This document shows positions 13,344 to 64,000 of a DNA stretch of 64,000 bases, in pieces; within the stretch, counting starts at the first letter, position 1; the number at the start of each line of letters is the position of its first letter. The stretch comes from Prorocentrum cordatum. Lineage: Eukaryota; Sar; Dinophyceae; Prorocentrales; Prorocentraceae. Location of the stretch: contig CAUYUJ010008602.1 in NCBI GenBank assembly GCA_963575745.1, forward strand, positions 132,366 to 196,365, given 5' to 3'. The notes beneath the pieces are model-generated. The model saw only the letters and a list, made by a program, of their open reading frames with translations, searched no databases and was not told where the DNA came from. Both the position numbers and the translations under genes were made by a program.

Positions 13344-13365
13344 TCCGTAGCCATTTTGGCTCAAG
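13344..13365 (+). other. dinoflagellate spliced leader (relict in DNA)
   Basis: Exact match over 22 nt to the conserved leader that is trans-spliced to dinoflagellate nuclear mRNAs: T at the variable first position, then CCGTAGCCATTTTGGC and TCAAG. It is not followed by a GT donor (next bases ATGATT), so this is not an SL RNA gene. It is a leader copied back into DNA. An ATG follows immediately at 13366, but that frame is a shadow of ORF1. Confidence 0.95.
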
Positions 13366-13517
13366 ATGATTGGTTCCCCTGGGGACCGCACGGATACCGC
13401 TAGTCCGCGGCCAGACCACCGCTCGCCTTCACCGTGGGAGTTGGGCGCCCACACCCAGTCCTTTCCAGATCGCGCTGCCACGGCCCACCGTGTGTGCTGC
13501 TGCCTGGCGTCGTGGAG

Positions 13518-14621
13518 ATGCCACCGCCGCATTACCGTTCGGAGCAGGCGCTTCCTTGGTACTGCAAGAGCTGCTGCGGGCCTTCGGGGAGACCGTGGTG
13601 GAATCATGCAGAGGCGCGGCAGTGTGCGAAGTGCAAGCTGGGCAAGGGACTGGTCTTCCACAGCGTGCGCCAGCCCTCGGCCCCCTCCCAGCGGAAGAAG
13701 GGCAATCAGGGCGGCAGCGGCAACGGCTACTGGGACGACTCCGTCAAGGTGGCCAAGCTCAAGTCCGAGCTCGCCGAGGCCCGCAAGCGGCTTGCCGCTG
13801 TGCAGAGGCCGCCGCCTGGCGGGGAGGACGTGCAGATGGAGCCGGCCGCGGACGGTGACGGCCCCGAGTCCGTCGCCAAGGACAGGCTACGCGAGGTCGG
13901 CGATCTCATCGGCAAGCTCAAGGGCATCTCCGAGCCGTCGGTCGTGGCCACGCGCGACAAGCTGCTGGCAGAGCAGGCCGAGCTGCGTGCTAAGGTGGCG
14001 GAGTCCCGACCGCTCGGACAGCGCTTGCGCGAGATGGGAGCTCAGTTCACCAGGCTGCAGAAGCTGCGCGACGACCAGCAGACCAAGCTCGATGGGCTGC
14101 AGGCGCAGATGCGCGACCTGCAGGAGAAGGAACGGCTCACCCGGGACAAGCTGGCGGCCCTCGACGCTAGCATGGAGGAGCTGGACCAGGAGCGCAAGAG
14201 GCTTCAAGGGCAGGTTCCGACGCCTGGCGACAAGGCGTCGCTCGACGAGCCGATCAAGGGGGTTGGTGCCACGCTCGAGGGCCTCGGGATCTTGCTCCAG
14301 AGCCTGGGCGCCGATCACCAGCTGTCGGGCAGCCTCGCGGCGAGCTTCCAGGAGCTGCAGAGGTTGCAGGAGGAGGAGGCGGCAAAGTTGGCTGCCCAGA
14401 GGGCGCAGGCTGATGCTGGGGCCGAGGCTGGTCCCAACGTCGAGCAGGCCGAGCGGCAGGACGACGCGGCAGCGCCTCGCACACCCCAGCCATCTGCCTT
14501 CTCCGACGACCCTGAGTTCATGGAGGAAGTCGTTGCGGCTGGGGGCGAGAAGCACAGGCTGGAGGAGATCTTCATGCGTTGGGGTGCCAAGGTCAAGAAG
14601 CCCAGGCTTACCCCTGCCTAG
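13518..14621 (+). CDS. LINE ORF1 protein: zinc finger plus coiled coil
   Basis: 367 residues from ATG 13518; the frame is also open from an earlier ATG at 13434, but 13518 gives the cleaner N-terminus. Near the start is a RanBP2-like zinc-ribbon pattern (WYCKSC ... WWNHAEARQCAKC). A basic QRKKGNQGG stretch follows. Then come about 150 residues of heptad-rich coiled coil (VKVAKLKSELAEARKRLAA; LDGLQAQMRDLQEKERL; MEELDQERKRLQGQ) and an acidic/Ala-rich tail. This is the expected design of a LINE RNA-binding, self-associating ORF1p acting as chaperone in the ribonucleoprotein. The stop TAG (14619-14621) is two bases before the ATG of ORF2, which suggests termination-reinitiation. Confidence 0.8.
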   Translation: MPPPHYRSEQALPWYCKSCCGPSGRPWWNHAEARQCAKCKLGKGLVFHSVRQPSAPSQRKKGNQGGSGNGYWDDSVKVAKLKSELAEARKRLAAVQRPPPGGEDVQMEPAADGDGPESVAKDRLREVGDLIGKLKGISEPSVVATRDKLLAEQAELRAKVAESRPLGQRLREMGAQFTRLQKLRDDQQTKLDGLQAQMRDLQEKERLTRDKLAALDASMEELDQERKRLQGQVPTPGDKASLDEPIKGVGATLEGLGILLQSLGADHQLSGSLAASFQELQRLQEEEAAKLAAQRAQADAGAEAGPNVEQAERQDDAAAPRTPQPSAFSDDPEFMEEVVAAGGEKHRLEEIFMRWGAKVKKPRLTPA

Positions 14622-14622
14622 C

Positions 14623-17600
14623 ATGGCTCCACGGCGATGTTTTGCGTGTCTTGTGTGGTTCGTCCTCCTATGTCGCACCATGGCTTCGGTTTCAAGTATC
14701 ACCACCGTGAACGTGTCCTCGGGCGGCCCGCTCGTCGATTTCCTGCCCACGTGCTCGAGTTTATGCATCGCGGTGCAGGAACATCATGCCAAGGCCGAGG
14801 GCGATGCATTGGCGAAGTTGCAGAATAAAGTAAGAGCTGCTGGGTACCATGGTATATGGGAGCCCGCCCTACCTGGGCAGGGAGTTGGCAGCAGAGGCGG
14901 GGTTGCGGTGCTGGCCCCGCTGCGGGTGGTCATCACCAAACCCCCAGGCCTGGACAGTCACGTGCTGCAGGAAGGCAGGATGATGGCGGCCCATGTCCAC
15001 GCTGGGGTGAAGGGCGGCTTCGTCATGCTGTCGTGCTATTTCATTGTGGACGTCAAGCTGTCGCCCGAGAACCTGGCCATGCTGTACAAGCTGTACCAGT
15101 ATGTCAGGTCGCTGGAGGCCATGGGCGTACCTTGGATCGTAGGAGGCGATTTCAACATGGAGGTAGGCGAGCTCGGCCCGTTGTCCTGGCTCCAGTCGGC
15201 CAATGGCGTGGTGCTGGCGCCGAGAGAGCCGACTTGTCTTCAGAGCCTTCCTGGCCGCACCATTGACATGTTCATGGTTTCTTGCCGTTTACTGCCTCGC
15301 GTTCGGCAACCAGTGGTCGTCGACGCGGAGACGTGGCCGCATCTACCAGTGACCATGGAGCTCTCCGCCACGGCTTTTGACGCGAAGGTCAGGAGGCTTG
15401 TCGAGCCACGCGGCTTTCGGAGGCCGCCTGCGGCGGGGTGCGCGAGGTTCCCCCCCGACTGGGACCCGATTTTGGCGATCATCCAGAGCGCGTCGGACAG
15501 CGAGGGCATCACCAGGGCCTGGGACGTCGTGCTCAGCGGCATCGAGTTCGAGCTGCGGGGCCGCTACGACATCGTGAAGGACGTGGCGGGGTACTCCACG
15601 GTGCCAGGCCCCCCGACCTTCGAGCTGGCGAGTTTTCACCCTGTCGTGAAAGGTGCCTGGAGCAGGAGGTCGGCGGACACCCAGGCCTGGGCGCAGGCTG
15701 CGCGCTGGGCTCGTCACCTCAGGAGGGTTCGAGTGGCCTTGCAGAGCTTCGTGCTCCAGCTTCGTCCGCAGCAGGTCTTCGAGCTCGGCAGCGTCGGCGA
15801 GGCGCACGTCGATGGAGTGCCTGGCCTGGGCGATGGTGCACCCCCTGCTGCGGAGGTCGTCGGAGTGGCTGGTCTCTCCTCCGATGGTGGTCGGCCTCGG
15901 TCGAGAGCTCAGCGACACCAGCCCCCGCGACGTGCAGGCGAGGACCTATCGTGGGACGCCGTGCACTCCAAGGCGGCGCGCCACCTGCTGGAGTGCGAGA
16001 ATTTCTTCCAGAGAATCTGGCGGAGGAAGGGAGTCTGGCCGCACCTGGACGCCGAGGCCGTCGGCTTCTTCTCGCGTGGCATACTTGCCTTAGCGCAGGC
16101 AGACTTCGAGCAGCAGGTCGACCGCATCCTGAGTATCTCCTCCGATGCTGAGGCCAAGCATGAGAAGGCCGTGATGCAGAGCTGGAGGCAGTGGGCGCAG
16201 GCTGCTTTTGTGGCTGGAGCCAAGGGAGCTCACCGATTCATGAAGCCCAAGGCTCTCCAGGAGATCGTGGACGGAGGCAATGGGCTACAACATGGGTACG
16301 TACTGGCTGATCGTAAGCTTGAATATTGGGAAAGCTTCTGGGCGCGGCATGGCGGTGAGCTGGCTCGCCGACCTGTTGATGCTGACACTTGGGAGCAGCT
16401 GCCTAGGCTTGAGGCGGCCGACGTACTCAAGGCAATCCGTTGTTTCTCTTGGCAGACAGGCGTCGGGCAGATCAACATCGCGCCCAGGGCCATGGAGCAC
16501 CTCTCCCACGGGGCGCTGACGGCCATGGCGCGCCTCTTCGAGCGGTGCGAGCACCTCCTGCTGTGGCCAGACGGCAGATTCCTCTCGAAGCTCGTGAGAC
16601 TCCCCAAGCCAGGGGGTGGGGAGCGCCTGATTGTGCTGATGAACACGCTGGTCAGGATCTGGGGACGGGCGAGGCGGCCTGTCTCGGCAGCGTGGGAGAA
16701 GGCCCATGCGCTCCCAGAGGTCTGGGGCCACACTGGAGGCAAGTCGTCGAGTGATGCGGCCTTTGATTTGGCTCTCACCAAGGAGATGGCGACCCTGTGC
16801 GATGACGACGCCATCATTGTGCTGCTGGACATGCTCAAATGCTACGAGCTGGTCAGGCATGATGCCATTTTGTTGGAGTGCAGGGCCAATGGATATCCTA
16901 TGCGAATGGCGTTCATGCTTGTGCAGATGTACCAGCAGCTGCGTTCGGTGTACTCGTATTCTTCGTATTCAGTGGCGCGCAGGGCGTATCAGGGCATCCT
17001 GGCAGGCTGCACCCACGCCACTACGCTTCTCATGGTGTTGTTGACTCGCAGCATTCGCCAGACGATGTCGGTCGCTCCTCAGGTTCAGCCCAAGGACTTG
17101 GTGGACGACGTCGCGCTGTGCTGGGTCGGCAACGACCCGAGCGGGGTGCGAGAAATGGCCATTGCCACTCGTGCGTTCTGCAGGGCTGTCCGGCCCCTCG
17201 GGCTGGTGCTGCAGATGGATAAGTCTGGGCACCTAACGACGTCCAGGCGCACCAGCTACCACTTTCAGAAGTACGCTAGGCTGCTGAAGATCGCTGGCAA
17301 GAGGCACATGCGGTATCTTGGCCACGACCTAGCTGGGTCGTCGGCCACAAGGGCCGTGCAGAAGGGACGCCTGAAGGCCATGCACGGCAAGAAGGCCAGC
17401 GTTCGAGCATTGCAGAAGGGAGCAGGACGACAGCGGGCGGCTCGGCTCTGGGCCACGGGTGTGCTGCCATCCGTGGGGCACGGAGCCACGGTCAGCGGCA
17501 TCAGCGACACGGAGCTGCAGCAGATGAGGACCATGGCTGGCGTCTTCTGTGGCTACAAGGGGTCGGGCTCCCTGACGCTGTACCTGGCCGCGCAGCAGTG

Positions 17601-19464
17601 GAACTTCGACCCCATATTCCACGCTACCTTCAGCATCGTGGGGCAGTACGCGGCGTGGGTGTGGGATGGGCGTGTGACGCTCTCCCGACTGCAGCGGGCC
17701 TGGATGGGCTTGCGTGACTCCTGGGAAGCCCGCCACACTCACGTCACGTGGGCCAGTGCGCAGGGCCCGCTGTCGGCTTTGTGGTTGTCCCTCAGGAGAG
17801 TCAACTGGAACATGGCAAGTTCTACAATCTTGGTTGACGATGAGGGCCTGCATATCAGTTTGCTGCAGTATTGTCCCAGTGAGGTGCTGTTTTTCCTGCG
17901 TCGCAGCCTCGACCGTTGGCAGAGCCATCGTATCCTCGACCAGCTGCCTGAGGCGCCCCCAGCCGATGGTGACGGCAGGCGGCAGCAGCATGTGTGGCTT
18001 CGTGCGCTTCGACTGGGACACGCTTCCTTGGCGCCTGGCCACAGAGGGGCTCTGGCCAAGCTGCAGTCCAACGGGTTCTGGTCGCCGCAGCGCCGCATGC
18101 AGGCTGGCTACGGCGGCGACGGTTCGTGCGAGTTCTGCGGGGAGGCCTGCTGCGACCTCGAGCATGAGATCTTCGGCTGCAAGGTATTGCATCAGCAGCA
18201 GGAGGACGAGGAGACGGAGCCGTACCCCGAGGAGGTGGCCAAGAGGAGGAAGGACATCCTGGAGGCAGCCCCGTGGCGCGACGGGGGCCAGGTGCAGGAT
18301 TTCTCGGCCATCGACGTGCTCTACGCGATGCCCCTGAGGCCTGTTTTCAGGCCGCTGCCTGCCCGTGCTCAGGCTGAGCGCGAGTGGGGGGCGATCGACA
18401 TGCCGCGGCCGTCGAAGTTGTACGGGGACGGGTCCTGTCTTGAAAGTGATTTCCCTGAGGAACGGCGCTGTGGCTGGGCCGTCGTGGCATTGACCCGAGA
18501 CCTGTGGCCATACAAAGCTTTGTTCGGGAGCCTGGGGGGCCCTATCCAGACGGTGCCCAGGGCCGAGCGCGTTGCTGGTCTCAAGGCCCTGCAGAGGGCC
18601 CAGAGGCCAGCCACGTACGTGACTGATCATTTACAGCTGCAGGTCGAGGGAATGGCCTGGGAGGGTCGTCATGCTTCTGCCAGAGCGCCTCACGCGTCCA
18701 TCTGGCGGAGCATCCACGAGCTGTATAGAGGCGACCCTGTCAGGCCCGTGTTTGTTTGGACGAAGGCCCATCGGACCGTCATCGAGGGGTTTGATGCCTG
18801 CCTGGCTTCCCAGGAGCCCCTGGAGCATTTTTTCGGTAATATGTGGGCTGATGTTTTCGCCCGCGTGGCTGCGGCAGATTTCCTTGGTTCCACCTCCGTG
18901 GTCAAGGCTCACAAATTTTCTCTGCTTCGGGCCCAGGACACGATGCGTTGTCTGGCCTGGGCTGCCGAGCGTGTGGCCCGCCTCTCCACCCCGATACTCC
19001 GTGCGCCTCCGAAGGCTGTCTTTCGGCCCCGCCGTCCGCGGCGGCCGACCGATCACGACTTTGTGGTCTACGCTGGGGGAGCGATTCGCTGTCGTGCTTG
19101 CTGGAGGCTTGCAGCGACGGCTTCGTCGTTGAAGTCTCTGGCCTCCCGTGCTTGCGACCCCCAGGAGGTCGGGCCAGGACACCAGGTCCAGGCTTTGGAT
19201 CGAGTTTTGATCTGTGTAAAGTGCGGGGCGCACGCTGTGCGCCCCAATCGACTGTCGGTCGGCCTGTCTCGAGCGTGCAAGAGGGCTGGGACGGGGTCGG
19301 CGGGAGCTGGGAGTGGGGGGGACGGAGCCATCGCGTCGATGCTCGAGCAGGCTCGAAGGGGCCTGCATCCCAAGACGGGCGAGCCCCTCGAGCCGCTCGT
19401 CTTCTCGGAGCTCGGGGAGCCTGCGATGCCGCAGCAGGCGCCCGAGCCCGAGGCACCTGCATAG
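14623..19464 (+). CDS. LINE ORF2: endonuclease - reverse transcriptase - RNase H
   Basis: 1613 residues from ATG 14623. Endonuclease (EEP fold): QEHH (52-55), RGGVAVLAP, GGDFNME (D176), IDMFMVS and PHLPVTM. RT: KLVRLPKPGGGERLIVLMN, motif A LDMLKCYEL (D736), motif B YQGILAGCTHAT, motif C LVDDVALCW (D828-D829). A CCHC-type cluster follows the RT (CEFCGEACCDLEHEIFGC). RNase H: YGDGSCLES (D1269), RAERVAG (E1315), VTDHLQL (D1335), NMWADVFA (D1410). C-terminal CRAC and CVKCGAHAVRPN form another zinc site. All catalytic residues seen are intact. The enzyme should nick the target, prime from it and copy the element RNA. RNase H with an EEP endonuclease points to an I/RTE-like dinoflagellate clade; exact clade not determinable here. 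Confidence 0.93.
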   Translation: MAPRRCFACLVWFVLLCRTMASVSSITTVNVSSGGPLVDFLPTCSSLCIAVQEHHAKAEGDALAKLQNKVRAAGYHGIWEPALPGQGVGSRGGVAVLAPLRVVITKPPGLDSHVLQEGRMMAAHVHAGVKGGFVMLSCYFIVDVKLSPENLAMLYKLYQYVRSLEAMGVPWIVGGDFNMEVGELGPLSWLQSANGVVLAPREPTCLQSLPGRTIDMFMVSCRLLPRVRQPVVVDAETWPHLPVTMELSATAFDAKVRRLVEPRGFRRPPAAGCARFPPDWDPILAIIQSASDSEGITRAWDVVLSGIEFELRGRYDIVKDVAGYSTVPGPPTFELASFHPVVKGAWSRRSADTQAWAQAARWARHLRRVRVALQSFVLQLRPQQVFELGSVGEAHVDGVPGLGDGAPPAAEVVGVAGLSSDGGRPRSRAQRHQPPRRAGEDLSWDAVHSKAARHLLECENFFQRIWRRKGVWPHLDAEAVGFFSRGILALAQADFEQQVDRILSISSDAEAKHEKAVMQSWRQWAQAAFVAGAKGAHRFMKPKALQEIVDGGNGLQHGYVLADRKLEYWESFWARHGGELARRPVDADTWEQLPRLEAADVLKAIRCFSWQTGVGQINIAPRAMEHLSHGALTAMARLFERCEHLLLWPDGRFLSKLVRLPKPGGGERLIVLMNTLVRIWGRARRPVSAAWEKAHALPEVWGHTGGKSSSDAAFDLALTKEMATLCDDDAIIVLLDMLKCYELVRHDAILLECRANGYPMRMAFMLVQMYQQLRSVYSYSSYSVARRAYQGILAGCTHATTLLMVLLTRSIRQTMSVAPQVQPKDLVDDVALCWVGNDPSGVREMAIATRAFCRAVRPLGLVLQMDKSGHLTTSRRTSYHFQKYARLLKIAGKRHMRYLGHDLAGSSATRAVQKGRLKAMHGKKASVRALQKGAGRQRAARLWATGVLPSVGHGATVSGISDTELQQMRTMAGVFCGYKGSGSLTLYLAAQQWNFDPIFHATFSIVGQYAAWVWDGRVTLSRLQRAWMGLRDSWEARHTHVTWASAQGPLSALWLSLRRVNWNMASSTILVDDEGLHISLLQYCPSEVLFFLRRSLDRWQSHRILDQLPEAPPADGDGRRQQHVWLRALRLGHASLAPGHRGALAKLQSNGFWSPQRRMQAGYGGDGSCEFCGEACCDLEHEIFGCKVLHQQQEDEETEPYPEEVAKRRKDILEAAPWRDGGQVQDFSAIDVLYAMPLRPVFRPLPARAQAEREWGAIDMPRPSKLYGDGSCLESDFPEERRCGWAVVALTRDLWPYKALFGSLGGPIQTVPRAERVAGLKALQRAQRPATYVTDHLQLQVEGMAWEGRHASARAPHASIWRSIHELYRGDPVRPVFVWTKAHRTVIEGFDACLASQEPLEHFFGNMWADVFARVAAADFLGSTSVVKAHKFSLLRAQDTMRCLAWAAERVARLSTPILRAPPKAVFRPRRPRRPTDHDFVVYAGGAIRCRACWRLAATASSLKSLASRACDPQEVGPGHQVQALDRVLICVKCGAHAVRPNRLSVGLSRACKRAGTGSAGAGSGGDGAIASMLEQARRGLHPKTGEPLEPLVFSELGEPAMPQQAPEPEAPA

Positions 19465-53589: not shown

Positions 53590-54425
53590 CGATTATAGGG
53601 CACTCCACCGCAGGCCGCAGTGGCTGCGCTCGCATGCGCCAGCCGATAGGACGATTCACCGAAGGCTCCAGAGGCTGCGCTCGCGTGCGCCCGCCACGCC
53701 CATTTCGGGCCACCCCTCGCACGCTTCGCGGCCGCATCGGGAGCTCCACCGAAGGCCCCAGTGGCTGCGCTCGCATGCGCCCGCCGCGCCCATGTCGGCA
53801 CACCCCTCGCACGTTTCGTGGCCCCACAAGGAGCACCGCCGATGGCCTTAGTGGCTGCGCATGCATGCCCCGCCTACATTTCGGCACACCCCTCGCACGT
53901 TCCGTGGCCCCACAAGAAGCACCACCGAAGGTCCCAGTGGTTGCGCTCGCATGCGCCCGCCGCATCCAGTTCGGCACTCCCCTCGCACATTTCGTGGCCC
54001 CATCGTGAGCTCCACCGAAGGCCCCAGTGGAGGTGTTCGCATGCGCCCGCCCCGCCCATTTTGGCACACCCCTCGCACGTTTCGTGGCCCAATCGGGAAT
54101 GGTGGCTGCGTTTGCATGCGTCCGCCCCCATCGTTTTCGGCGCACCATTCATATTTCTTCGTTGCCTCATAGGGAACGCCACTGAAGGCTCCAGTGGCGG
54201 TGTTCGCACGCGTCCGCCCCGCCCATTTCGGTACACCCTTACACGCGTCGCGGCCCCATAGGGCGCTCCCTCGAAGGCCCCAGTGTCGGTGTTCGCATGC
54301 GTCCGCCACACCTTTGTGGCCCCATAGGGGAACTCCACCGAAGATCCCAGTGGCTGCGTCGGCATGCGCTCACCGCACCCACTTCGGTACATTCCTCACA
54401 CACTTCGTGGCCTCATAAGAAGTTC
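53590..54425 (-). repeat. 90-bp satellite array, opposite orientation, part 2
   Basis: About nine units of the same 90-bp sequence. 53370-53590 between the parts is unrelated GC-rich sequence. Confidence 0.9.
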
Positions 54426-54469
54426 CACCGATCACAGCATTCACTATTGCGTTACTCACAGCTGCATAT

Positions 54470-54700
54470 GGTTGGGTCCTTCGCCAGGCTCAGTTTCGCC
54501 AGCCGAGTACGCAACCCACGGCACAACCAATGGTAGGCCTAGCATTGGCAGCCGAGTGCGCACCGTTTGGTGCAGCCAACGGCAGGCCGTTCCTGTTGTC
54601 GGCATCCGACCACGCAGTGTGTGGCGCAGCAGACACACCAGGCCGTTTGATGTTCGGCAGCCGAGTGCGCAGGCCGTGGCGCACACCATGGATGGCGCCA
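54470..54700 (-). repeat. minisatellite, unit about 52 bp, second part
   Basis: Same core as 52000-52620 (CAGCCGAGTGCGCA, GGCGCAGC, CAGGCCGTT). The 90-bp array seems to lie inside this minisatellite. 54835-55020 carries CGT/CGC triplets; 55020-55200 has no gene. Confidence 0.75.
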
Positions 54701-55411
54701 CGCACGGCGCAGCCCATGGGTGGCGCCATGCCCTGGCACTCTGCACAGGGCCGCGCCCGCATTGTGCCCGCCGTGCGGGCGGGCGGCGGGCCCGAAGCGG
54801 GGAGCTGCCCGGTTGTCTGGAAGACCTCCAGACAACCGTCGTCGTCGTCGTCGCCGCTGCTGCCGTCGCCGCGTGAATCGTCGTCGCTGGCGTAACCGCC
54901 GCCGTAACGCCGCCGTAACGCCGCCGCCGCCGTCGCCGTGGGAGTCGCCGCCGTCGTCGTGCATCGGGGTCGCCGTTGCACCCGTCACCGTCGTCGTCCC
55001 GTTCGTTGTCGTCGCTAACGCCATCTGCCCGCCTTTCCCCTTCATTGATGTCGCTTGCTCCACTATGCCGTCGTGGACATCCCCTTTCGCAGGAGTGTAG
55101 GTCATGATTGGCCTGCCACGTCTGGAAACACTGTCCGGGGCGTCGGTGTTGTAGGTGTATAGATGTCGAGCTGAGGGGCCCCGCCCCCCCTCCCTCCCCC
55201 CCTCGAGTTTCGACGTCGCGATGTTGTGAATACGGGGCCCCTGGCAGCCCCGACCTGTTTTCTTCCCCAGGGCCGGTGTCTCCTCCCGAGCCGTTTGCTC
55301 TTGGTCCGGGGCCCCCTGCGAGGGCCTCCAGCCTCCGAGGGCAGCGAGAGACCTCCGTGCCGAGGTCTGTCAATGCGCTGGATCCCTGGGCCCCCGCACC
55401 CCCTCTCCCGC

Positions 55412-55611
55412 ATAGGGGAACAAAAAGTGGCATAAACAGAAAAACTCGGAGGTCCGCGCGGATTTCTCGGATCGGCGCTGGGGCCCCCTGGCGGCGCCTC
55501 CGGCGCCGCCGCTGGCGCGCTCCGCGCGCCAGGGAGGGGGTCCAGCGCCGATCCGAGAAATCCGCGCGGACCTCCGAGTCTTTATGTTTATGTCACTTTT
55601 TGTTCCCCTAT
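55412..55611. mobile_element. family 1 hairpin introner, copy a
   Basis: 200 bp forming an almost complete hairpin. ATAGGGGAACAAAAAGTG on the left matches CACTTTTTGTTCCCCTAT on the right. CTCGGAGGTCCGCGCGGATT matches ATCCGCGCGGACCTCCGAG, and CTCGGATCGGCGCTGG matches CCAGCGCCGATCCGAG, around GGCGCCTCCGGCGCC. Lies 870 bp before the first MATE exon found, possibly within an upstream intron. Confidence 0.85.
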
Positions 55612-55612
55612 C

Positions 55613-55830
55613 CCAGAGGGGGTCCGAGCAGATGGGGTCGGGTGATCGAGCCGTGCCGTCGATGCTTCGGCGGTGCGGCTCGGCGTGGAGCCCCGACGTT
55701 CCCCACGCTGGCGTCGCCGAGGCATCGCCGATGCATATGCCGAAGCATCGCCGATGCATCGGCGATGTGTCGCCGACGCATGCGAGGCGGCATCCCCCGC
55801 CATGCTCCGCGAGCCCATCTGGGCCCCTCC
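55613..55830. mobile_element. inverted-repeat family D, copy 5
   Basis: GGGGTCCGAGCAGATGGGGT at the left, GCGAGCCCATCTGGGCCCC at the right, GCATCGCCGATGCAT words inside. Followed at once by (TCC)n at 55826-55925. Confidence 0.75.
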
Positions 55831-55925
55831 TCTTCCTCCTCCTCCTCCTCCTCCTCCTCCTCCTCCTCCTCCTCCTCCTCCTCCTCCTCCTCCTCCTCCT
55901 CCTCCTCCTCCTCCTCCTCCCCCTC
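55826..55925. repeat. (TCC)n microsatellite
   Basis: 100 bp of TCC. Confidence 0.95.
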
Positions 55926-56164
55926 CAGGCCTCTGCTCTGGCGCAGCCCCCTTTTTTTCCCCCCATACCCCCAGGAGAGGGGCGCCGCCCGCGCGACCGC
56001 ATTCTGCAGGCCGGGGGCGCGCGCCGGGGGGGCCTCATGGGCGCCCCGGGGGGCGGGGCTGGGCCCGGGGGCTCCTGGAGGAGCGACGTTCGCAGAATCC
56101 TGCGCCTCGGCTGCCGGAGGAGGAACAGGTATACCCATATACCCAGAGCTCCAGGCACTGAAAG

Positions 56165-56335
56165 CAAGAAGCGAGGCGGAGGTTTTTCGCGGTGTTCGGC
56201 GTCTGGAGGCCCTCGCCGGGCCCCGGGAGTAAAAGGAATTGCTCAGGATGAAAGAGCGGCCCTGGGGAAAGGGTCGGGGCTTTCGGGGACCCCGTATAGA
56301 AAAAATCACGACGTCGGATCTCTGGGTACCGCTAC
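56165..56335 (+). repeat. dispersed repeat family C, copy
   Basis: GTTCGGCGTCTGGAGGCCCT, TTGCTCAGGATGAAAGAGCG, CCTGGGGAAAGGGTCGGGGC and ATCACGACGTCGGATCTCTG. Next to it (56360-56435) is CTGGATTCGCCTCGAAATTC, shared with 45380-45425. Confidence 0.75.
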
Positions 56336-56484
56336 CTTTCGCCCCTTTTCCCCTTCTTGGGCCTCCTGGGTGGCCCTCGTTGCCACCGCTGGATTCGCCT
56401 CGAAATTCTGGTCAGAGCGCACCGCAGGAGAGGTCCAGGGAGTAGCAGCATCGGTGCCTGCTGGTTCCCCTAGGTTGGCCCCAG

Positions 56485-59434
56485 TCTGTCAACCTGATCA
56501 TCACCTTCCTGCCGGGCCTGGGCATGCTGTTTTTTCTCGGCGCCGACCCGGACCACACGGCGGCCGCGGGCATGGGCTTCATGTTCACCAACGTGGCCGG
56601 CTTCTCCCTGATCGTGGGCTCTGGAGCCGGCGCCCAGCCGCTGATCAGCCAGGCCTTCGGGGCGGGCAGTCTGCGGCGGTGCGGCGACCTTCTCCAGCGG
56701 CAGCTCGCGATGCACGCGGCCCTGTGCGGCTGCATCGCCCTCGTCTGGCTCAGCACGGAGCGGATCCTGCTGGCGCTGAAGCAGCCGCCGGGCATCGCGC
56801 AGCTCGCGGGGCAGTTTGTGCAGTGGCGCGTGGCCGCGCTGCCGGCCCTCGCAGTCAGGGAGGATTTGTCCAACTACCTGGTGGCCCAGCGGGTGACGAT
56901 GTTCCCGATGCTGTTGAGCGTCGCGGCTGGGGTCCTCAACATGGCGGCGTTTGCCGCGCTGATACCGCGCATGGGCTTCGTGGGAGCGCCGCTGGCGTAC
57001 ACCGTGGCCAACGTGGCCCAGGCCGTGGTGCTGTGGCTGTTCGCCCGCTGCGCTCTGGCGGACGGGGACACGTGGCCGCAGTGGTCGGTGCGGGAAGCGC
57101 TGTCGGGCTGGGGCGAGATGCTGGCTCTCGCCCTGCCGGGGGGCGTCCTCATGTTGTGCGAGTGGTGGGGTTGCCTCGGGGGTCCCCAAACGGTGCGGTG
57201 ACTGCAACGAGCGGTTGCTCCGTGGGGATGCGTGGTGGCCGCACGCTTCTGGGACGTGGGCCGTGCTCCGAGGACGTCTCGGGCGACTGGGGATTCCGAG
57301 GTCCCGGAGCGATACGGTGACGGACCGTACGGTTGTGGAGGACGATCAATGGAGAGGAAGCATGTTGCCAAATAATTCCCAGATGTCTAAAACATTTGGT
57401 ACACATGTCTTAAACATGCAAAACAACATGGTTGAAACATGTTTAGAACAGTTGTCCGACACTTTAAACACAGTGTACATTCAAGGATAGGGCTGTCAGG
57501 GTGTCCACTGTCGTGGCATCCACAACCGTGCGGTGCGGTCCTGGGGGAGTCCGGGGTCAGCGCACGGTCCGCCACCGCTTTCCGCTCCGATGCCCCCCGA
57601 AGGCTGGGAGACGAACCTCTTCTTCGCGGGACTCCTGTGCGACCCGCGGGGCAACGGGGGCGGCGAGCACGGCTGCCTGGCTATAAAAAAGAGTCGAGCT
57701 TCGCCCGGGTGACCTGTGGCGTCGTGGAGGACGATCACTGGAGAGGAAGCATGTTGCCAAATAATTTCCAGATGTCTAAGCATGTGTGAAGCATGTTCAA
57801 AACATGTTTTAATGTTGTAAGCATGTAAACAAACATGCTGAAAGCAGGTTCATAACATGTTCCTACATTTTTAACACATCCTAAGTTCAATGATAGGACT
57901 AGGGTGTCCATGGCCGTGGCATCCACAAGTCTAGCTTCACCCGGGAGGCCTGTAGCGCGCCGCTTTCAGGGACGGCGCGGGGCCCAAGGTCCAAAAGCGC
58001 GCAGACCGCTCCCATCGCACCGCACGCAGCGATCGGCACTCGCCGCGCACAAAGAGGGCCACGCCTTTCCGCCAGGGTCACTCTTTGCGTGCAGCCGAGG
58101 CTGCACGCAGCTCGACGCGTTCCCCGTGCTGGCGAACACCATTCGAAGAATCAAAAACGGCATAAACATAAATTTTCGGCGCTCCGCGCGGATTGTTTGG
58201 ATCTGCGCTGGGCCCCCTGGCGGCGCCTGCGGCGCCACCCTTGGCGCGCTCTGCGCGCCAGGAAGGGGGCCCAGCTCAGATCCAAGAAATCCGTGCGGAG
58301 CGCCGAACATCTGTGCTCATGCCCTCCCTTGTTTCTCTGACCATGGTCCTGGGCTTCATGCCCGCGTTCGGTCTGAACGTGACCGCGGGGGCGCTGATCG
58401 GGAACGCCCTGGGCGCCAACGACCCCGCCACCGCCAGGCGCCTGAGCCGCTGCGCCCTGTGCCTCTCGGCGGCAATCTCGGGCTCCCTCGCGGCAGCCCT
58501 CGTCGCCGTGCGGGAGAGCTGGGGCGAGCTCTTCAGCGACGACGCGGAGATCGCGGCCCTCACGGCGAGGGCCATGCCCACCATGCGGAGAAGAGAAGCG
58601 GCATACGCAGAAGGTTTCGGAGGTCGGCGCGGGTCTCTTGGATCGGCGCTGGACACCCCTCCCGGGCGCGCAGAGCGCGCCAGGGGCGGCGCCGGAGGCG
58701 CCGCCATGGGGGCCAACGCCCATCCGAGAAATCCGTGCGGACCTCCGAAAGTTTCTGTTTCTGCATGCTTATCCCTTCTTCTGACCATTGCCGCCTACAT
58801 CTTCCTCGACAGCCTCGGGCCGGGGGCGCTGGTCTCGATCCTCCGCGCCATGAGCGTCGTGAGGCTGCCCGCCGCAATCAATTTCGTAGCATTCTACGTG
58901 ATCGGCATCCCCTTCGGGCTCGTGCTCGCCTTCGGGCTGCCCGGCCAGGGCTGGGGCATCATAGGGCTCTGGTCTGGGCTGGTGCTCGGCATGCTCGTGA
59001 TGGTGTGCAGCCTGCTGCTCTACCTCTGGCTCGGCGTGGACCTCAGAGGAGGGAAAGATACCGATACCACTACCCTTAAGTCGGGCATGTCCACCTACAG
59101 GAGGAATATTCAAGAGTGGAAAGAATGGTCTGGTGACGATTTGCCGTACTCGTCTGACTATGTTTGAGTATTTGTTTGACTACATTTTATGTGTCTTGCA
59201 AAATCCGCCTGTGGGAGGACATGCCCGACCTAACAATACCCTTCCCTCGTCGCGACGGCTGGATTCTTGTCGAGATTCTGGGCAGGATGCTCGGAGAGCT
59301 CCCGTGGAGCAGCGGCATCCGCGGCTCTGTACTGGCTCCCCAGGGCTGGGCCGAGGTCGCGGAGGCCGCGCACGCCCAGGCGGGGGGCAAGGCCGGGGAG
59401 GAGGGCGCTGACCTTGAGGCGCCAGGGCTGAGTC
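56485..59434 (+). CDS. MATE-family multidrug/toxin extrusion transporter, interrupted by introner introns
   Basis: Exons deduced by frame and family pattern: A 56485-57169, B 57603-57671, C 58100-58142, D 58345-58584, E 58789 to about 59041-59053; phases agree at all four junctions. Together about 430 residues, normal for MATE proteins, lacking only a short N-terminus. Visible: first helix LIITFLPGLGMLFFLG, then PLISQAFGAG (the family's cation-site region), about ten more hydrophobic segments. Exon A/B joins to CEWWGWETNLFFAG (family pattern EWW-x-[FW]E...AG), C/D to LANTMVLGFMPAFGL and ALIGNALGAND (second bundle counterpart), D/E to MPTIAAYIFLDSL. The protein should export organic cations or toxins in exchange for H+ or Na+ across the plasma or a vacuolar membrane. 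A C-terminal tail exon probably begins after CTCCCCAG at 59343 (GWAEVAEAAHAQ, to 59430); the E/tail splice is unresolved. The N-terminal exon was not found. Confidence 0.85.
57170..57602 (+). other. MATE intron 1 (GT-AG) with nested MITE
   Basis: 433 bp, begins GTTGCC, ends CCGAAG. Its outer parts are inverted (GTTGCCTCGGGGG against CCCCCCGAAGGCTG), so the intron itself looks like an inverted-repeat element. A family M element (57333-57525) has inserted inside, with CCGTACGG/CCGTGCGG at its borders. Confidence 0.8.
57333..57525 (+). mobile_element. MITE-like family M, copy 2, inside MATE intron 1
   Basis: Starts TTGTGGAGGACGATC, ends GTGGCATCCACAA; about 8-bp duplicated borders CCGTACGG (57325-57332) and CCGTGCGG (57526-57533). 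Confidence 0.85.
57672..58099 (+). other. MATE intron 2 (GC-AG), a family 2 introner carrying a MITE
   Basis: 428 bp. GGCTGC is present at both ends (57671-57676, 58099-58104), and one placement gives a GC donor and AG acceptor with the frame kept (EHGC then TQLDAF). The right end, AGGGTCACTCTTTGCGTGCAG, is that of family 2; the left end is diverged. A family M element sits inside (57722-57929). Confidence 0.75.
57722..57929 (+). mobile_element. MITE-like family M, copy 3, inside MATE intron 2
   Basis: Starts TCGTGGAGGACGATC, ends GTGGCATCCACAAG. It is bordered by similar sequences AGCTTCGCCCGGGTGACCTG (left) and AGCTTCACCCGGGAGGCCTG (right), longer than the duplications of the other copies. 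Confidence 0.8.
58143..58344 (+). mobile_element. MATE intron 3 = family 1 hairpin introner, copy b
   Basis: 202 bp flanked by ACCAT at 58138-58142 and 58340-58344. Long hairpin: TCGGCGCTCCGCGCGGATT against ATCCGTGCGGAGCGCCGA, and CTGGGCCCCCTGGCG against TTGGCGC...GGGGGCCCAG. Excising it with one ACCAT keeps the frame (ANTMVLGF). No shift within the duplication gives GT-AG, GC-AG or GA-AG ends, so splicing must be non-canonical. Confidence 0.85.
58585..58788 (+). mobile_element. MATE intron 4 = family 1 hairpin introner, copy c
   Basis: 204 bp flanked by ACCAT at 58580-58584 and 58784-58788, the same duplication as intron 3. Arms CGGAGGTCGGCGCGGGT and ATCCGTGCGGACCTCCG; outer ends GAGAAGAGAAG and CTTCTTCTG. 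Excision gives MPTIAAYIF in frame. Borders again non-canonical. Confidence 0.85.
59079..59231. mobile_element. inverted-repeat family H, copy 2
   Basis: GTCGGGCATGTCCACCTACA on the left, TGTGGGAGGACATGCCCGAC on the right; GGTCTGGTGACGATTTG inside. It lies between MATE exon E and the tail exon, so it is probably another element-derived intron part. Confidence 0.8.
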
Positions 59435-59618
59435 GGCCACACGTAAGAGTGACCCTTCGCCGGAGTGACCTTTGCTGCGGGCTCATCGGGCTCCCCCCAT
59501 CGCCGAGCGCGATGCGATATAAGCGGCCCGTGCCCTTGGGTTTGGCTCCCTCGCGCCCCCAAAAGCTGCGCACCAAAGGTCACTCTCGCCCAGGGTCACT
59601 CTTACGTCTAGCCGACTG
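59431..59618 (+). mobile_element. introner-like family 2 element, copy 4 (intron in C-terminal tail)
   Basis: Inverted ends AGTCGGCCACACGTAAGAGT and CTTACGTCTAGCCGACT, flanked by CTG on both sides (59428-59430, 59616-59618). Two readings: GT-AG intron 59443-59611, or removal with the CTG duplicate, which joins GADLEAPG to LESQKETLQ and looks more natural. Confidence 0.75.
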
Positions 59619-59637
59619 GAGTCGCAGAAGGAAACGC

Positions 59638-59808
59638 TACAGGAGCACAAATTGTCGAAGCTCCGCGCGGGTTCCTCGGATCGGCGCCGGGCTCCCCTGG
59701 GCGGCACCTCCATCGCCGCCCCTGGCGCGCTCCGCGCGGCAGAGAGGGGGGGGGTCCAGCGCGCGGACCCAAGAGACCTGCGCGGACCTCCAACAATCTA
59801 TGTGACGC
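59638..59808. mobile_element. family 1 hairpin introner, copy d
   Basis: AGCTCCGCGCGGGTTCCTCG and CGGATCGGCGCCGGG against GCGCGGACCCAAGAG and CTGCGCGGACCTCC. Flanked by ACGC (59634-59637, 59805-59808). Coding-like text follows at 59836-59930 (EAGTAADLTASLASEAE) and 59996-60177 (ending in a stop), possibly last exons of the same or another gene, but I cannot join them. Confidence 0.7.
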
Positions 59809-60205
59809 CGCGCTGCTTGTTCGGAGCGCGCCCACAGTGGACGAGGCTGGCACCGCGGCAGACCTCACTGCAAGCTTGGCGTCCGAGGCGGAGTCTGGCC
59901 CTGGTGGCCAAGGTGCCCTCCCCAAAACGGAAGGCCGCGCGCGTCAGAACAAACGGCGCGGCGACATGCTTCTTTTCGTGTGTGTGGTTCCTCTATGGAG
60001 GAGCGCGCCGGCAGCGGCGGCCCCGCGGCCAAGGCCAACCTCGAGAGCAAGTGCGGGCCCGCCGCGCTGGCGCCCACGCCGCGCACCAAGGCGCACGTGC
60101 GGCGCCAACGCGGCGCCACCGGCAAGCGGCCTTCGTACAGGCTGTCGTGCGTTGCGCAGGGGGTGGGGCGGCGGTAAACGAGGGGGTGAAGAAAGGTGCA
60201 CGTCT

Positions 60206-60418
60206 CACGAGAAAAAAAACAAGAACGGGCATAGGCATAAGCTGTTGGAGCTCCGCGCGGAGTTTTTGTGTCGGCGCTGAACCTCCCTCCCTGGCGCGCG
60301 GAGCGCGCCAGGGGCGGCGCAAGAGGCGCCGCCAGGGTGGGCCAGCGCCAATCCAAAAAGTCCGCTCCGAGCTGCAACAGTTTATGTTTATACCGGTTTT
60401 TGTTCGTCTACTCTCGTG
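60206..60418. mobile_element. family 1 hairpin introner, copy e
   Basis: CACGAGAAAAAAAACAAGAACGG faces CCGGTTTTTGTTCG...CTCTCGTG; TTGGAGCTCCGCGCGGA faces TCCGCTCCGAGCTGCAA; centre CTGGCGCGCGGAGCGCGCCAG is itself palindromic. Confidence 0.8.
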
Positions 60419-60734
60419 CACCGTAGGGGCCCTAAAGAGGCCCTCCAGGGCCCAAAATGAGCGCGAAAGGTGCAGGTGTCTTCGCCCCCCATTCCCCAGA
60501 CCACCGACGTCATATTTTGTTGTTCATAACGTCAATCCTCAAAGGTCTCGGCCCATTCTCTGGGGCCGGGTTTTCGTCCTGAGTCGTTGACTGTCAGTCC
60601 CGAGGCACTTGTCAGGGCCCCGAGAGGCCGAAAATACAGAAAAGCCTTCCGTCGTGATTTTCGCATGACTCGAGGGGGTCTGGGCTATCGCCCCCCTGGG
60701 GCTGGTGGTCGAGCCAGGAGGGGGCCCGCTGGGG

Positions 60735-61230
60735 TGTCGCCGTTGTCGTCGTCGTCGCCGCCGTCGTCGCTGCCGCCGTCGGCGTCGCCGCTGTCGTCGG
60801 CGTGGGCGTCGTCGACGGCGCCATCGCTGCCGACGTCGTCGTCGTCGCTGCCGCCGTCGTCGCTGCCGCCGTCCTCGCCGCTGCCGTCGTCGACGTCGTC
60901 GTCGACGTCGTCGTCGTCGTCGTCGTCGTGGTCGCCGCCGTCGTCGGCGTCGGCGTCGTCGACGTCGTCGTCGTTGCCGTCGCCGTCGCCGTCCTTGCCC
61001 AAAGGCTGGTGGTCGAGCCGGGAGGGGGCGCGGCCGTCGGGGCGGGGTCGCCTTCGGGCGAGGGGCCGCTGCCCGGGGCCGTCTTCGCCGCGCAGGGCGC
61101 CTGAGCGCCTGCGCGGGGCCAGGCCCGTCGGCGTCGCCGTCGTCGTCGTCGCCGTCGTCGTTGTCGTCGTCGTCGTCATCGGTGCCGTCGTCGTCGGTGT
61201 CGCCGTCGGGGTCCGCGTCGTCGGCGGCTA
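60735..61230. repeat. (GTC/GCC)n triplet tract
   Basis: About 500 bp of impure GTCGTC, GCCGTC and GGCGTC triplets with a GC-rich interruption at 61005-61125. 60420-60735 before it holds fragments of family C. Confidence 0.9.
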
Positions 61231-61289
61231 CAGAGGGTGTGGTGAATTACGTCGGGGTGTGGCTTGTGGTCTGCGTCGTTTCGAGCCCT

Positions 61290-61460
61290 CCTCGGGCCAT
61301 GCGGGAGGTGTTTTGCCATCTCCGGCCTCTGGGGAGCTTCGCCGGGCCTCGGGACCGTCAAAGAACGATGCAGGATGGAAGGCGGGTCCATATCCACTGG
61401 TCGAGGCCTTGAGGGCTCGACGCTGTTTAAAAAGATGGCGTCGGGGGTCTGGGTTGGGGC
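61290..61460 (+). repeat. dispersed repeat family C, copy
   Basis: CATCTCCGGCCTCTGGGGAG, GCCTCGGGACCGTCAAAGAA, GATGCAGGATGGAAGGCGGG, TTTAAAAAGATGGCGTCGGG. Confidence 0.75.
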
Positions 61461-61639
61461 TTGGGGGGCACCACGCTGCCCTCGTCGAGCCTCCTCGGGG
61501 CCGCGGCGGAGAACTCTGTCGAGGTCCTCGCCCGCCCCGCGGGGTGCGCGTTGCAGACCACACCCTTTGCAAAAATCACACCCTGCGGAGTCGCCGACCG
61601 AGCTGGTCTCCGTCTGGTCCTTGCCCCTCCCCTGTGATC

Positions 61640-61860
61640 CCAGACTCCCCCGAGTCATGGAAAACAAAACACGACGTGCGGTTCTTCGCTATGTTCGGCC
61701 TCTGTGGACCCCTACCAGGCCCCAGGGCCGTCAAAAATATATTAGGAATAACAACTGGTCCCGGGAAAGGGGTCAGGACCTTTGAACATGAAAAACAAAT
61801 AACAAAACATAAACTTAAAAGAAAAACAAAACATACCGCGGGGGGTCTGGCCCCCCCTCC
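61640..61860 (+). repeat. dispersed repeat family C, copy
   Basis: ATGTTCGGCCTCTGTGGACC, AGGGCCGTCAAAAATATATT, CTGGTCCCGGGAAAGGGGTC, with an A-rich insertion of AACAAAACATAAA words before GGGGGTCTGG. Confidence 0.75.
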
Positions 61861-61919
61861 CCCCTCATCCGACACCCTCGCCCCTGTCCCGTACTCCATA
61901 TTCGGGAAACTAACAGTCA

Positions 61920-62075
61920 CACAAACACGAAACGCATTCGGAGGTCCGCGCGGGTTTCTAGGATCGGCGCTGGAGCTTCTTGGCGGCGCCGCCCCTGGCG
62001 CGCCAGAGGCGGGGGTCCAATGTCGATGCAAGAACTCAGTGCGGACTTCCGAAAGTTTTCGTTCATGATCTTTGT
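61920..62075. mobile_element. family 1 hairpin introner, copy f
   Basis: ATTCGGAGGTCCGCGCGGGT and GGATCGGCGCTGGAG on the left, CAGTGCGGACTTCCGAAAG on the right; the centre is shortened relative to copies b and c. Confidence 0.75.
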
Positions 62076-62205
62076 TGTCTCTCGACCCTCCCCCCAACCG
62101 CATGCTTCCTCCCCGGGCGTCGCGCACGGGCATCGCGACGGCTGCCCCAGGCCTCCTGGGCATCCGGAGGCAGGCCGCCCACGCGGCAGACGCCCGGGAC
62201 GAGGG

Positions 62206-62285
62206 GCCGATCTCGGGGAAGGGGTTGAGGGGTCACCCCTCCTAAGAAGCAGGGGTGACCTCTCAACCCCTTCCCCGAGATCGGC
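62206..62285. repeat. long near-perfect hairpin
   Basis: Arms of about 36 bp: GCCGATCTCGGGGAAGGGGT TGAG faces CTCAACCCC TTCCCCGAGATCGGC, and GGGTCACCCCT faces AGGGGTGACC, with an 8-base loop. A second inverted pair CCCGGGCGTC/GACGCCCGGG (about 62115 and 62188) lies just upstream. Confidence 0.85.
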
Positions 62286-62289
62286 AAAC

Positions 62290-63020
62290 CAAAACGCAAA
62301 ACCAAGCACCAAAAGAAACAGCCCTGAAGACCCCAGCAGAAACCTAACGTTTTGTTATAGCGTCTTCAGCCTGTCACGAGCCCGAAGTAGAACACGCTAG
62401 AAACAACGCCCAGGGCGCTGTTAAGGCGAACCACGGAGAGGTCCGGGGGGCCACCTCGCGAACAGGTCGTGACAGGCCTCGGGAAAAAGCAGCGAACACT
62501 CATGCCACATTCATCTGGCAACGCCTCCCCCTCCCCCCGATGTTCAAGGTTGGCGGTGGGTCTGCTGAGTTGCACCTCGATCGCGGTCTCCCCCGCGCGT
62601 GCCAACTCTGAGTTTGGGTGGCAGGGGGGGTGTTTACTAATTGTCTCCCTGTACCGGACGTCGGGTGTCCAGGCTTAAGTAGGGCCTGTCCCTCTACAAG
62701 AGGAGCATTCAAAAATAATCAAAAAATAGTCAGGGGACGATTTGTTTTACTATTTTCACCCCTGAAGGGGGCCCCCTCATCTGCTATCCCACCTTCCTAT
62801 CCCCCACCTACCCCTTGTCCGCCTCCTTCCTCCTGCGGTCGGGCCTTGCTTGGCCGTCGCCGCTTGCGAACGCGAACGGCGCACGGCCTCCGAGTTGACC
62901 ACAAGGGGGCTCCGTCAAGACGGAGTTGCCGACCCCCCTTGCGCGGCCGGCTTGATGCGTTCTGGGGGCCTCCTGCAAAGCTGGCCCCCTGGACCAAGCC
63001 AAGGAGTATTTGGCCGTTGG
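62290..63020. other. no gene recognised
   Basis: Mixed sequence. 62680-62760 (CTCTACAAGAGGAGCATTC, GGGGACGATTTG) is a diverged piece of family H. Nothing else is supported. Confidence 0.4.
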
Positions 63021-63024
63021 GGTA

Positions 63025-63265
63025 GAGTAGGTAGGTAGGTAGGTAGAGTAGGCAGGTAGGTAGATTTGGTAGAGTAGGTCGAGTAGGTAGGTAGAGTAGG
63101 TAGGTAGAGTAGGTCGAGTAGGCAGAGTAGGCAGAGTAGGTAGGTAGGTAGGTAGGTCGGTAGGTAGGTAGGTCAGTAGGTAGGTAGGTCGGTCGGTCGG
63201 TCGGTAGGTAGGGAGGTAGGTAGGTAGAGTAGGAGTATCTGGCCGTTGGGGCAGAGTAGGTAGGT
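63025..63265. repeat. (GTAG)n microsatellite
   Basis: GTAGGTAGGTAG with GAG and GTCG interruptions, about 240 bp. Confidence 0.95.
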
Positions 63266-63409
63266 AGGCCTCCCTGGGGAGGGGGGGCGCCCTCCCTGGG
63301 TGCGCCCCGCCGGGCCCGCGAAGAGCGGCAGCCCGCGGCTTTTTCGGTGCTGCGCCGGCCTCGCCGAGCCCGGCTCACGCCCAGAAAGGGTCTCCTCTTC
63401 GAGGGATTC

Positions 63410-63553
63410 CCTCCTCCTTCTCCTCCTCCTCCTCCTCCTCCTCCTCCTCCTCCTCCTCCTCCTCCTCTCCTCCTCCTCCTCCCCCCTCCTCCCCTCCTCC
63501 TCCCTCTCCTCCTCCCCCTCCTCCTCCCCCTCCCCCTCCCCCTCCCCCTCCTG
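63410..63553. repeat. (TCC)n microsatellite
   Basis: TCC run passing into (TCCCCC)n. Confidence 0.95.
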
Positions 63554-63774
63554 ATTCTGCTTCGAGGAGTCGAGGAACTGATGTCCCTTCCAGGGGCAAC
63601 GATTAGGGGGAACGAGGTTTGCGGACGTGTGCGTCGGTTTTTGGAGGCTTTCCCGGGATGTGCTCCAGCAGCTGTGCCTCGCCGAGGGCGTTTCCGGGAC
63701 GTCTAGGATCGTCCCGGAAGGCCGTCGGAGAGCCGAGTTGTGTTTTGAAAACTAAGGGGCAACCATCGGGCGGG

Positions 63775-63950
63775 GGGTAGACATAGGGGGGATTCATCGA
63801 CCTCCAATCGCCCACTGATCGCCGATAAGGATCCGATAACCCCACCCCGCCCAGGAACGTGCGGATCTGCCATCGGAGACCCATCGCCGATCTATCGGCG
63901 ATGTGTCGCCGATTCCAGGCCGATGTTCCCCCCCCTGTGCCAGTCCTCCC
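63775..63950. repeat. dispersed repeat family F, copy 3
   Basis: ATCGCCGATAAGGATCCGAT, CGCCCAGGAACGTGCGGAT, CCCATCGCCGATCTATCGGC and GTCGCCGATTCCAGGCCGAT in the order seen at 179 and 11595. 63556-63774 has no recognised gene. Confidence 0.75.
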
Positions 63951-64000
63951 CCCATCGTTGCCCCTCATTTCTCCTCGGCGGGAGTACGGTGGGGGCGTTC

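Follow-up and report, generated by a model that had tools for sequence, protein, structure and literature searches.

Hairpin transposon copies as probable introns, some with non-canonical borders, in a MATE gene of Prorocentrum cordatum

The window is a stretch of 64,000 nucleotides (nt) of contig CAUYUJ010008602.1 of Prorocentrum cordatum, a bloom-forming alga. It contains a MATE transporter gene with two hairpin-forming inserts, each flanked by ACCAT. The inserts belong to a family of hairpin transposons that resembles miniature inverted-repeat transposable elements (MITEs) and has variable 5-bp target duplications. Both are probably family copies inserted into exons and now behaving as introns; such segments are very probably introners, some of them with non-canonical borders. 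Removal of the hairpin segments from RNA is predicted from the reading frame and from homologous proteins.

Two related hairpins flanked by ACCAT had been recognised in a preliminary description of the sequence, and the coordinates, spacings and folds agree with it. The segments are the same, but their numbering has changed: introns 3 and 4 of that description are introns 4 and 5 of the five now modelled. Parts of the two inserts, all on the + strand:

58138..58142, + strand: left ACCAT of intron 4 (target duplication); from sequence.
58143..58339, + strand: hairpin element in intron 4, TCGAAGAAT...TCTCTG, copy of the MITE-like family; from sequence, profile and folding.
58340..58344, + strand: right ACCAT of intron 4; from sequence.
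58580..58584, + strand: left ACCAT of intron 5; from sequence.
58585..58783, + strand: hairpin element in intron 5, GCGGAG...CTTCTG, same family, order of the centre opposite to that in intron 4; from sequence, profile and folding.
58784..58788, + strand: right ACCAT of intron 5; from sequence.

Start-to-start spacing of the ACCAT copies is 202 in intron 4 and 204 in intron 5. Folding energies are –136.9 kcal/mol (z –14.6) for the intron 4 hairpin and –134.1 kcal/mol (z –10.2) for that of intron 5, with none of 200 shuffles as stable in either case. Most of the similarity between the inserts is in inverse orientation, with 83% complementarity over 109 nt. Folded alone, both insert RNAs place the ACCAT copies at the hairpin base, where they are unpaired apart from the initial A of the right-hand copy in intron 4; with longer flanks, some ACCAT copies pair with neighbouring sequence. 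Divergence from the family consensus is 18% for intron 4 and 26% for intron 5 (the highest of 69 copies), and both ACCAT pairs are still intact. Rfam covariance models searched against 54000-64000 (E up to 0.1) gave no match on the inserts, as group I or group II introns or otherwise; all nine matches in that region were to microRNA models, below their cut-offs.

The MATE frame is restored once each insert is excised together with one of its ACCAT copies, as had been proposed: the joined frame has 0 stops in 445 codons tested. Of 36 homologs listed, 22 were aligned (7 with mmetsp or eukprot names, which denote transcript collections) and 21 were counted after P0003 had been dropped. P0003 is a public Prorocentrum cordatum protein ('unnamed protein product'), 100% identical to the joined protein over 59%. 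At the junctions of introns 4 and 5, none of the 21 homologs is gapped within 6 residues. At intron 3 all 21 are gapped nearby, a count that is uninformative because the preceding loop varies in length. The gene model comprises five introns:

56037..56109, + strand: exon 1, from ATG to the GC donor; start taken from public model P0003.
56110..56473, + strand: intron 1, GC-AG possible; from junction-pair enumeration.
56474..57169, + strand: exon 2; from frame and homolog alignment.
57170..57602, + strand: intron 2, GT-AG possible; from junction-pair enumeration.
57603..57671, + strand: exon 3 (GWETNLFFAGLLCD...); from homolog alignment.
57672..58099, + strand: intron 3, GC-AG possible inside a GGCTGC direct repeat; from junction-pair enumeration.
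58100..58142, + strand: exon 4, ending with the retained ACCAT; from frame and homolog alignment.
58345..58584, + strand: exon 5; from frame and homolog alignment.
58789..59167, + strand: exon 6, to the first in-frame stop, putative 3' end; from frame and homolog alignment.

P0003 ends ...GEHGCLAIKKSRASPG, within intron 3, and the public model is without the exons around the hairpin introns. Its end lies before these introns, at one where GC-AG is possible, so the hairpins may or may not account for the truncation.

For the test of border signals, junction pairs yielding the homolog-supported peptide were enumerated and checked for GT, GC or GA with AG (GT/GC/GA-AG). Choices for the conserved peptide are AC-TG, CC-GA, CA-AC, AT-CC, TT-CA and TC-AT at intron 4, and CA-CT, AC-TG, CC-GA, CA-AC, AT-CC, TG-CA and GC-AT at intron 5. 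No GT/GC/GA-AG pair occurs among those giving the conserved peptide at MATE introns 4 and 5, nor at insertion A of an aconitase gene copy on another contig (C19778). Three of the four exactly analysed insertions are accordingly without such a solution. Pairs of this kind are available for MATE introns 1-3 and for aconitase insertion B. Intron 3 was read early on as non-canonical; this was rejected, since GC-AG fits within its GGCTGC repeat. Predicted exon joins at the MATE locus and the aconitase copy (C19778:212800-216000) are GCGAACACCAT/GGTCCTGGGC, ATGCCCACCAT/TGCCGCCTAC and CGCTTCCCGATC/GGCATCTCC.

The family profile was built from 25 copies, both MATE inserts among them. Searched against the whole window (E up to 0.01), it gives six family copies including both inserts, all in 55.4-62.1 kb, in agreement with the earlier statement that at least four more copies lie within 7 kb:

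58143-58336 and 58589-58781: family copies at the MATE inserts, by profile.
55413..55610, strand not assigned: family copy upstream of the MATE gene, by profile.
59623..59804, strand not assigned: family copy downstream of the MATE gene, by profile.
60214..60410, strand not assigned: family copy downstream of the MATE gene, by profile.
61904..62082, strand not assigned: family copy downstream of the MATE gene, by profile.

Genome searches with three query copies returned 3,713, 3,879 and 4,829 first-look candidates, of which 40 were scored for each query; the copy number of the family is therefore bounded only from below. Twelve further copies, partial ones included, are present in 137 kb of flanks of the fetched loci, a biased sample. 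The consensus, derived from 69 copies in a common orientation, each taken with five bases of flank on either side, is about 197 nt long and reads TCGAAGAAG...CTTCTTCTA; termini TCGAAG... and ...CTTCTA/G. Mean divergence of the 69 copies from the consensus is 12.5% (range 5.9-25.9).

A perfect 5-bp duplication is present in 22 of 69 copies with recognisable ends (from 72 distinct copies). When ends of different copies were paired in 200 shuffles, the mean was 1.4 perfect duplications and the maximum 5. In a count of 35 copies, 96 of 175 duplication positions match against 45.5 ± 6.0; the end of intron 4 is misplaced in that count. The 22 perfect duplications represent 21 different sequences as read, and ACCAT occurs only in the two MATE copies. 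A fixed ACCAT target site was rejected on this ground, and insertion at ACCAT-like sites, as first suggested, is not supported.

Free flipping of the element centre relative to the ends was considered and is mostly wrong, centre order and end type being linked in most copies. Intron 5 (58585-58783) and L041:1083-1280 are exceptions, with the centre reversed and the ends forward-like. Read by eye on the sense strand, four copies (MATE introns 4 and 5, aconitase insertion B and a copy in a helicase gene) run from TCGAAG-like to CTTCY-like; a one-polarity rule for exon copies was not adopted, four cases being too few.

The aconitase copy on C19778 has three exons: the first extends to residue 534, the second encodes 60 residues and the third completes the protein. 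Both of its introns come from the hairpin family; with the two elements removed, 911 codons are read with no stop. None of 17 homologs, picked from the best 120, is gapped at the junctions. The best match listed is P0037, with 97% identity over the stretch used in the search and 96 differences among all aligned positions; its source contig has 2,807 bases, which would suit a transcript of a relative. The best listed matches reach 97% in residues 500-760 and 86% in residues 1-440.

Aconitase paralogs on C18295 (10 matches) and C13664 (16 matches) are divided into many small exons and provide uninterrupted sites. At insertion A, C13664 is uninterrupted and reads CTTCCCGATCGGCATC; C19778 has CTTCCCGATC, element, CCATTGGCATC. 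The duplication there is CGATC / CCATT, the left copy intact and the right copy with two changes, and the frame still closes. At insertion B, C18295 is uninterrupted and reads ATCAAGGCGGGGGACC; C19778 has ATCAAGGA, element, AAGGAGGGGGACC. Insertion B can splice GA-AG because its duplication AAGGA happens to spell GA...AG; insertion A is without a GT/GC/GA-AG option. The ratio of nonsynonymous to synonymous substitution rates (dN/dS) is 0.072 between C19778 and C18295 (39 synonymous and 10 nonsynonymous changes, 321 codons, 6 of 10 C18295 pieces) and 0.046 between C19778 and C13664 (55 codons, 2 of 16 pieces), with exon edges trimmed by eye; these values indicate purifying selection. At 75 nt upstream of the aconitase ATG stands AGCCAGTTTGGCTCAAG, which matches the dinoflagellate spliced leader at 16 of 17 letters. 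Missing introns and relict leader fit a retrogene-like copy, a returned mRNA that would later have gained two introns.

According to the preliminary description, the intron is excised through the duplication and not through GT-AG signals. The part concerning signals is supported: homolog-supported junctions coincide with the duplications, and neither MATE insert has a GT/GC/GA-AG option. The part making the duplication the means of excision goes further than the data do: with the decayed repeat of aconitase insertion A the frame still closes, so that excision does not seem to need a perfect repeat, and a dinoflagellate-canonical GA-AG solution is available to another family copy.

Element search yielded 70 loci (40 + 30; 69 with one shared), including five near-duplicate pairs by eye. 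The screen for coding insertions used openness of the flanks and codon-position GC in 150-nt flanks, top rows only; others may be missed. The element lies within coding sequence at three of 69 loci: MATE, aconitase on C19778 and probably an SF1 helicase on C11051. Random insertion would predict about 6% in coding sequence (85,849 gene models × 2,798 coding bases, from the available text of PMC10666404, in 4.13 Gb); three of 69, a small number, gives no sign of depletion. The helicase flanks (L008) match Pfam AAA_12 once joined with a later exon at a putative junction; a search of solved structures with them gave no match. The duplication of this copy is AACCA/GACCA, and its insertion within coding sequence is likely.

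Other candidates were rejected. L079 and L047 are not counted as exon insertions, as both copies lie just upstream of AG|G sites and are probably intronic. L065 has coding-like sequence on one side only. An alkaline phosphatase gene was sought via PF13449; the hit at C19327 reads as a phytase/acid-phosphatase gene. By eye, the copies at L047:491-686 (a MATE paralog) and L079:1500-1688 (an acyl-CoA dehydrogenase-like gene) stand tens of bases upstream of AG|G, and may contribute to the 3' splice region.

Three properties agree with introners: related sequences at intron positions in MATE and aconitase, by frame and homology; insertion into uninterrupted coding sequence, at the sites of the aconitase paralogs; terminal inverted repeats together with a target-site duplication. 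In the proposed course of events, a hairpin transposon would insert in an exon and duplicate 5 bp of target. The transcript would fold into a near-complete hairpin, bringing both duplication copies together at its base. Cutting and joining within or at the duplications would leave one copy and restore the old exon. Border signals would be usable only where the duplication happens to spell them (AAGGA, giving GA...AG), and ordinary splicing could then follow; such signals would arise only by luck, since the duplication sequence varies. The machinery could be the spliceosome with relaxed borders, or another. The spliceosome may yet be involved: the usual forward 3' end, a T-rich stretch followed by CTTCTTCTA/G, looks like a polypyrimidine tract. 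That Prorocentrum excises hairpin transposons whatever the border sequence, guided by hairpin and duplication and not by GT/GC/GA-AG, is proposed tentatively, with slightly less than even confidence.

Several observations weigh against spliced introns arisen by insertion. Among the matches listed, there is no protein identical to the joined MATE protein; no transcript of the gene itself is among them, and MATE splicing is therefore inferred rather than observed. The open frame is weak as evidence: neutral simulation at change levels of 2, 5, 8 and 10% gives zero stops in 56%, 23%, 11% and 6%. The closest other MATE paralog in the genome is only 36% identical; MATE paralogs were for this reason rejected as empty sites, and MATE has neither empty site nor dN/dS. 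The aconitase copy has no identical protein among the best 120 of either list, and its dN/dS averages the time since the copies split, not since insertion. At insertion A, C18295 has its own intron about 3 codons before, and C13664 none there; at insertion B, the fifth base differs, AAGGC in C18295 and AAGGA in C19778. The three coding hits among 69 include one that is only likely, and the 30 second-query loci are without a clear case. Intron 5, of 204 nt and with no in-frame stop, is translatable in principle.

This last property would also permit retention of intron 5 as a translated insertion of 68 residues, intron 4 alone being spliced; none of the 21 homologs counted carries an insertion there, and such retention is very improbable. 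A dying gene, with transposons in exons and nothing to remove them, would agree with the lack of a MATE transcript among the matches listed and with the end of P0003 inside intron 3. It is unlikely in view of the 445 joined codons without a stop, of exons behind the inserts that are not clearly less conserved (mean identity to the 21 homologs 58% for exon 2, 48% for exon 5, 61% for exon 6), and of the same family in an aconitase copy with a dN/dS of 0.072. Ordinary spliceosomal GT/GC/GA-AG splicing with some residues altered is rated lower still than a dying gene. Dinoflagellates accept GC and GA donors (available text of PMC10666404), and such solutions lie within the repeats of MATE intron 3 and aconitase insertion B. 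At introns 4 and 5 and aconitase insertion A, however, the conserved peptide is obtained from no such pair. In a wider scan within 60-80 nt of the ends of the MATE inserts, every stop-free in-frame pair listed either brings in residues from the hairpin or loses conserved residues.

Insertion of family copies followed by excision as introns would connect the identical end bases seen in unusual dinoflagellate introns with one particular mobile family, whose target duplications can be measured. The retrogene-like aconitase copy, with uninterrupted sites in its paralogs, offers intron gain of known direction. If hairpins do leave the mRNA at any border, every exon insertion would instantly be an intron and nearly harmless, and the aconitase copy would be a returned mRNA whose later intron gains were all of this kind. 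Pipelines limited to GT, GC and GA donors may miss or cut such genes, given that the public MATE model ends in intron 3 and that the aconitase copy lacks an identical protein in the best 120 of each list. RNA data are already published for P. cordatum.

Further repeats are present in the window. MATE introns 2 and 3 share a 59-nt repeat (57332-57390 and 57721-57779, 95% identical); a similar stretch seems, by translation, to stand beside a family element at locus L007. A second dispersed repeat thus seems to sit in these introns. Another inverted-repeat element, with arms around GTAAGAGTGACCCT, occupies 59431-59617; by eye, the sequence at about 58075-58110, where intron 3 ends, is similar to its arm. 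A hairpin at 62206-62285 has 38-nt arms, 95% complementary, and a 4-nt loop, and falls below cut-off against several microRNA models. Long simple repeats (CCT, CGTCGT-like and GTAG-like arrays) surround the MATE gene at 55830-55920, 60714-61260 and 63040-63270. At 13345-19464, a perfect spliced-leader-like sequence, CCGTAGCCATTTTGGCTCAAG, directly precedes an open frame of 2032 residues that reads, by eye, like a non-long-terminal-repeat (non-LTR) retrotransposon, with endonuclease-like and reverse-transcriptase-like stretches. This non-LTR-like element could be a source of returned mRNAs.

Introns of a comparable kind are described elsewhere, and the sources are used here as far as their available text goes. 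Introners of Amoebophrya A25 and A120 have inverted repeats, direct repeats of 3-5 nt and non-canonical borders (Farhat et al. 2021, PMC7789003). They are like the Prorocentrum inserts in being repeated introns with end-pairing inverted repeats and direct repeats at the boundaries, spread as non-autonomous DNA transposons; their inverted repeats are of 8-20 nt, the introns are supported by RNA sequencing, and no family-specific inverted repeat was found (PMC7789003). In Prorocentrum, by contrast, nearly the whole element of about 197 nt forms the hairpin, the termini recur, the duplication is of 5 bp, and the inserts are read from genomic sequence. Unlike Amoebophrya, the host is a photosynthetic core dinoflagellate.

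For Amphidinium carterae, comparison of genomic DNA with complementary DNA (cDNA) revealed in 2008 introns that lack GT-AG and carry the same 4-6 bases at either end; non-GT-AG borders and identical end bases are shared, and no transposon family is named in the available text (Bachvaroff and Place, PMC2488372). Euglenid nonconventional introns have variable non-canonical borders and an RNA structure joining their ends (PMC6221363, PMC4770533). Non-canonical borders and end-pairing structure are thus common to both; euglenids are another eukaryote group, and membership is not claimed for the Prorocentrum inserts. Prorocentrum minimum is taken here to be P. cordatum. Its alkaline phosphatase intron, from genomic DNA compared with cDNA, has a TC donor and an AC acceptor, likewise not GT/GC/GA-AG, and is described with an (AT)n stretch, so that it may belong to another family (PMC4548154).

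Insertion of a transposon with terminal inverted repeats and a target-site duplication creates an intron, and splice sites can derive from the duplication, with GT, GC or GA and AG as borders (Gozashti et al. 2022, PMC9860276). The Prorocentrum duplication, in contrast, gives none of these in three of four cases. Roy et al. 2023 reportedly also deal with introners whose splice sites come from the duplicated target. In P. cordatum, introns are reported to be enriched in introner elements; the gene-model tools had been adapted so that GC and GA donors were allowed, and the donor table contains GT, GC and GA only (available text of PMC10666404). A literature search of limited coverage yielded no account of the family serving as non-canonical introns in Prorocentrum. 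The kind of intron is already known; the family, the retrogene-like aconitase case and the empty sites are the additions.

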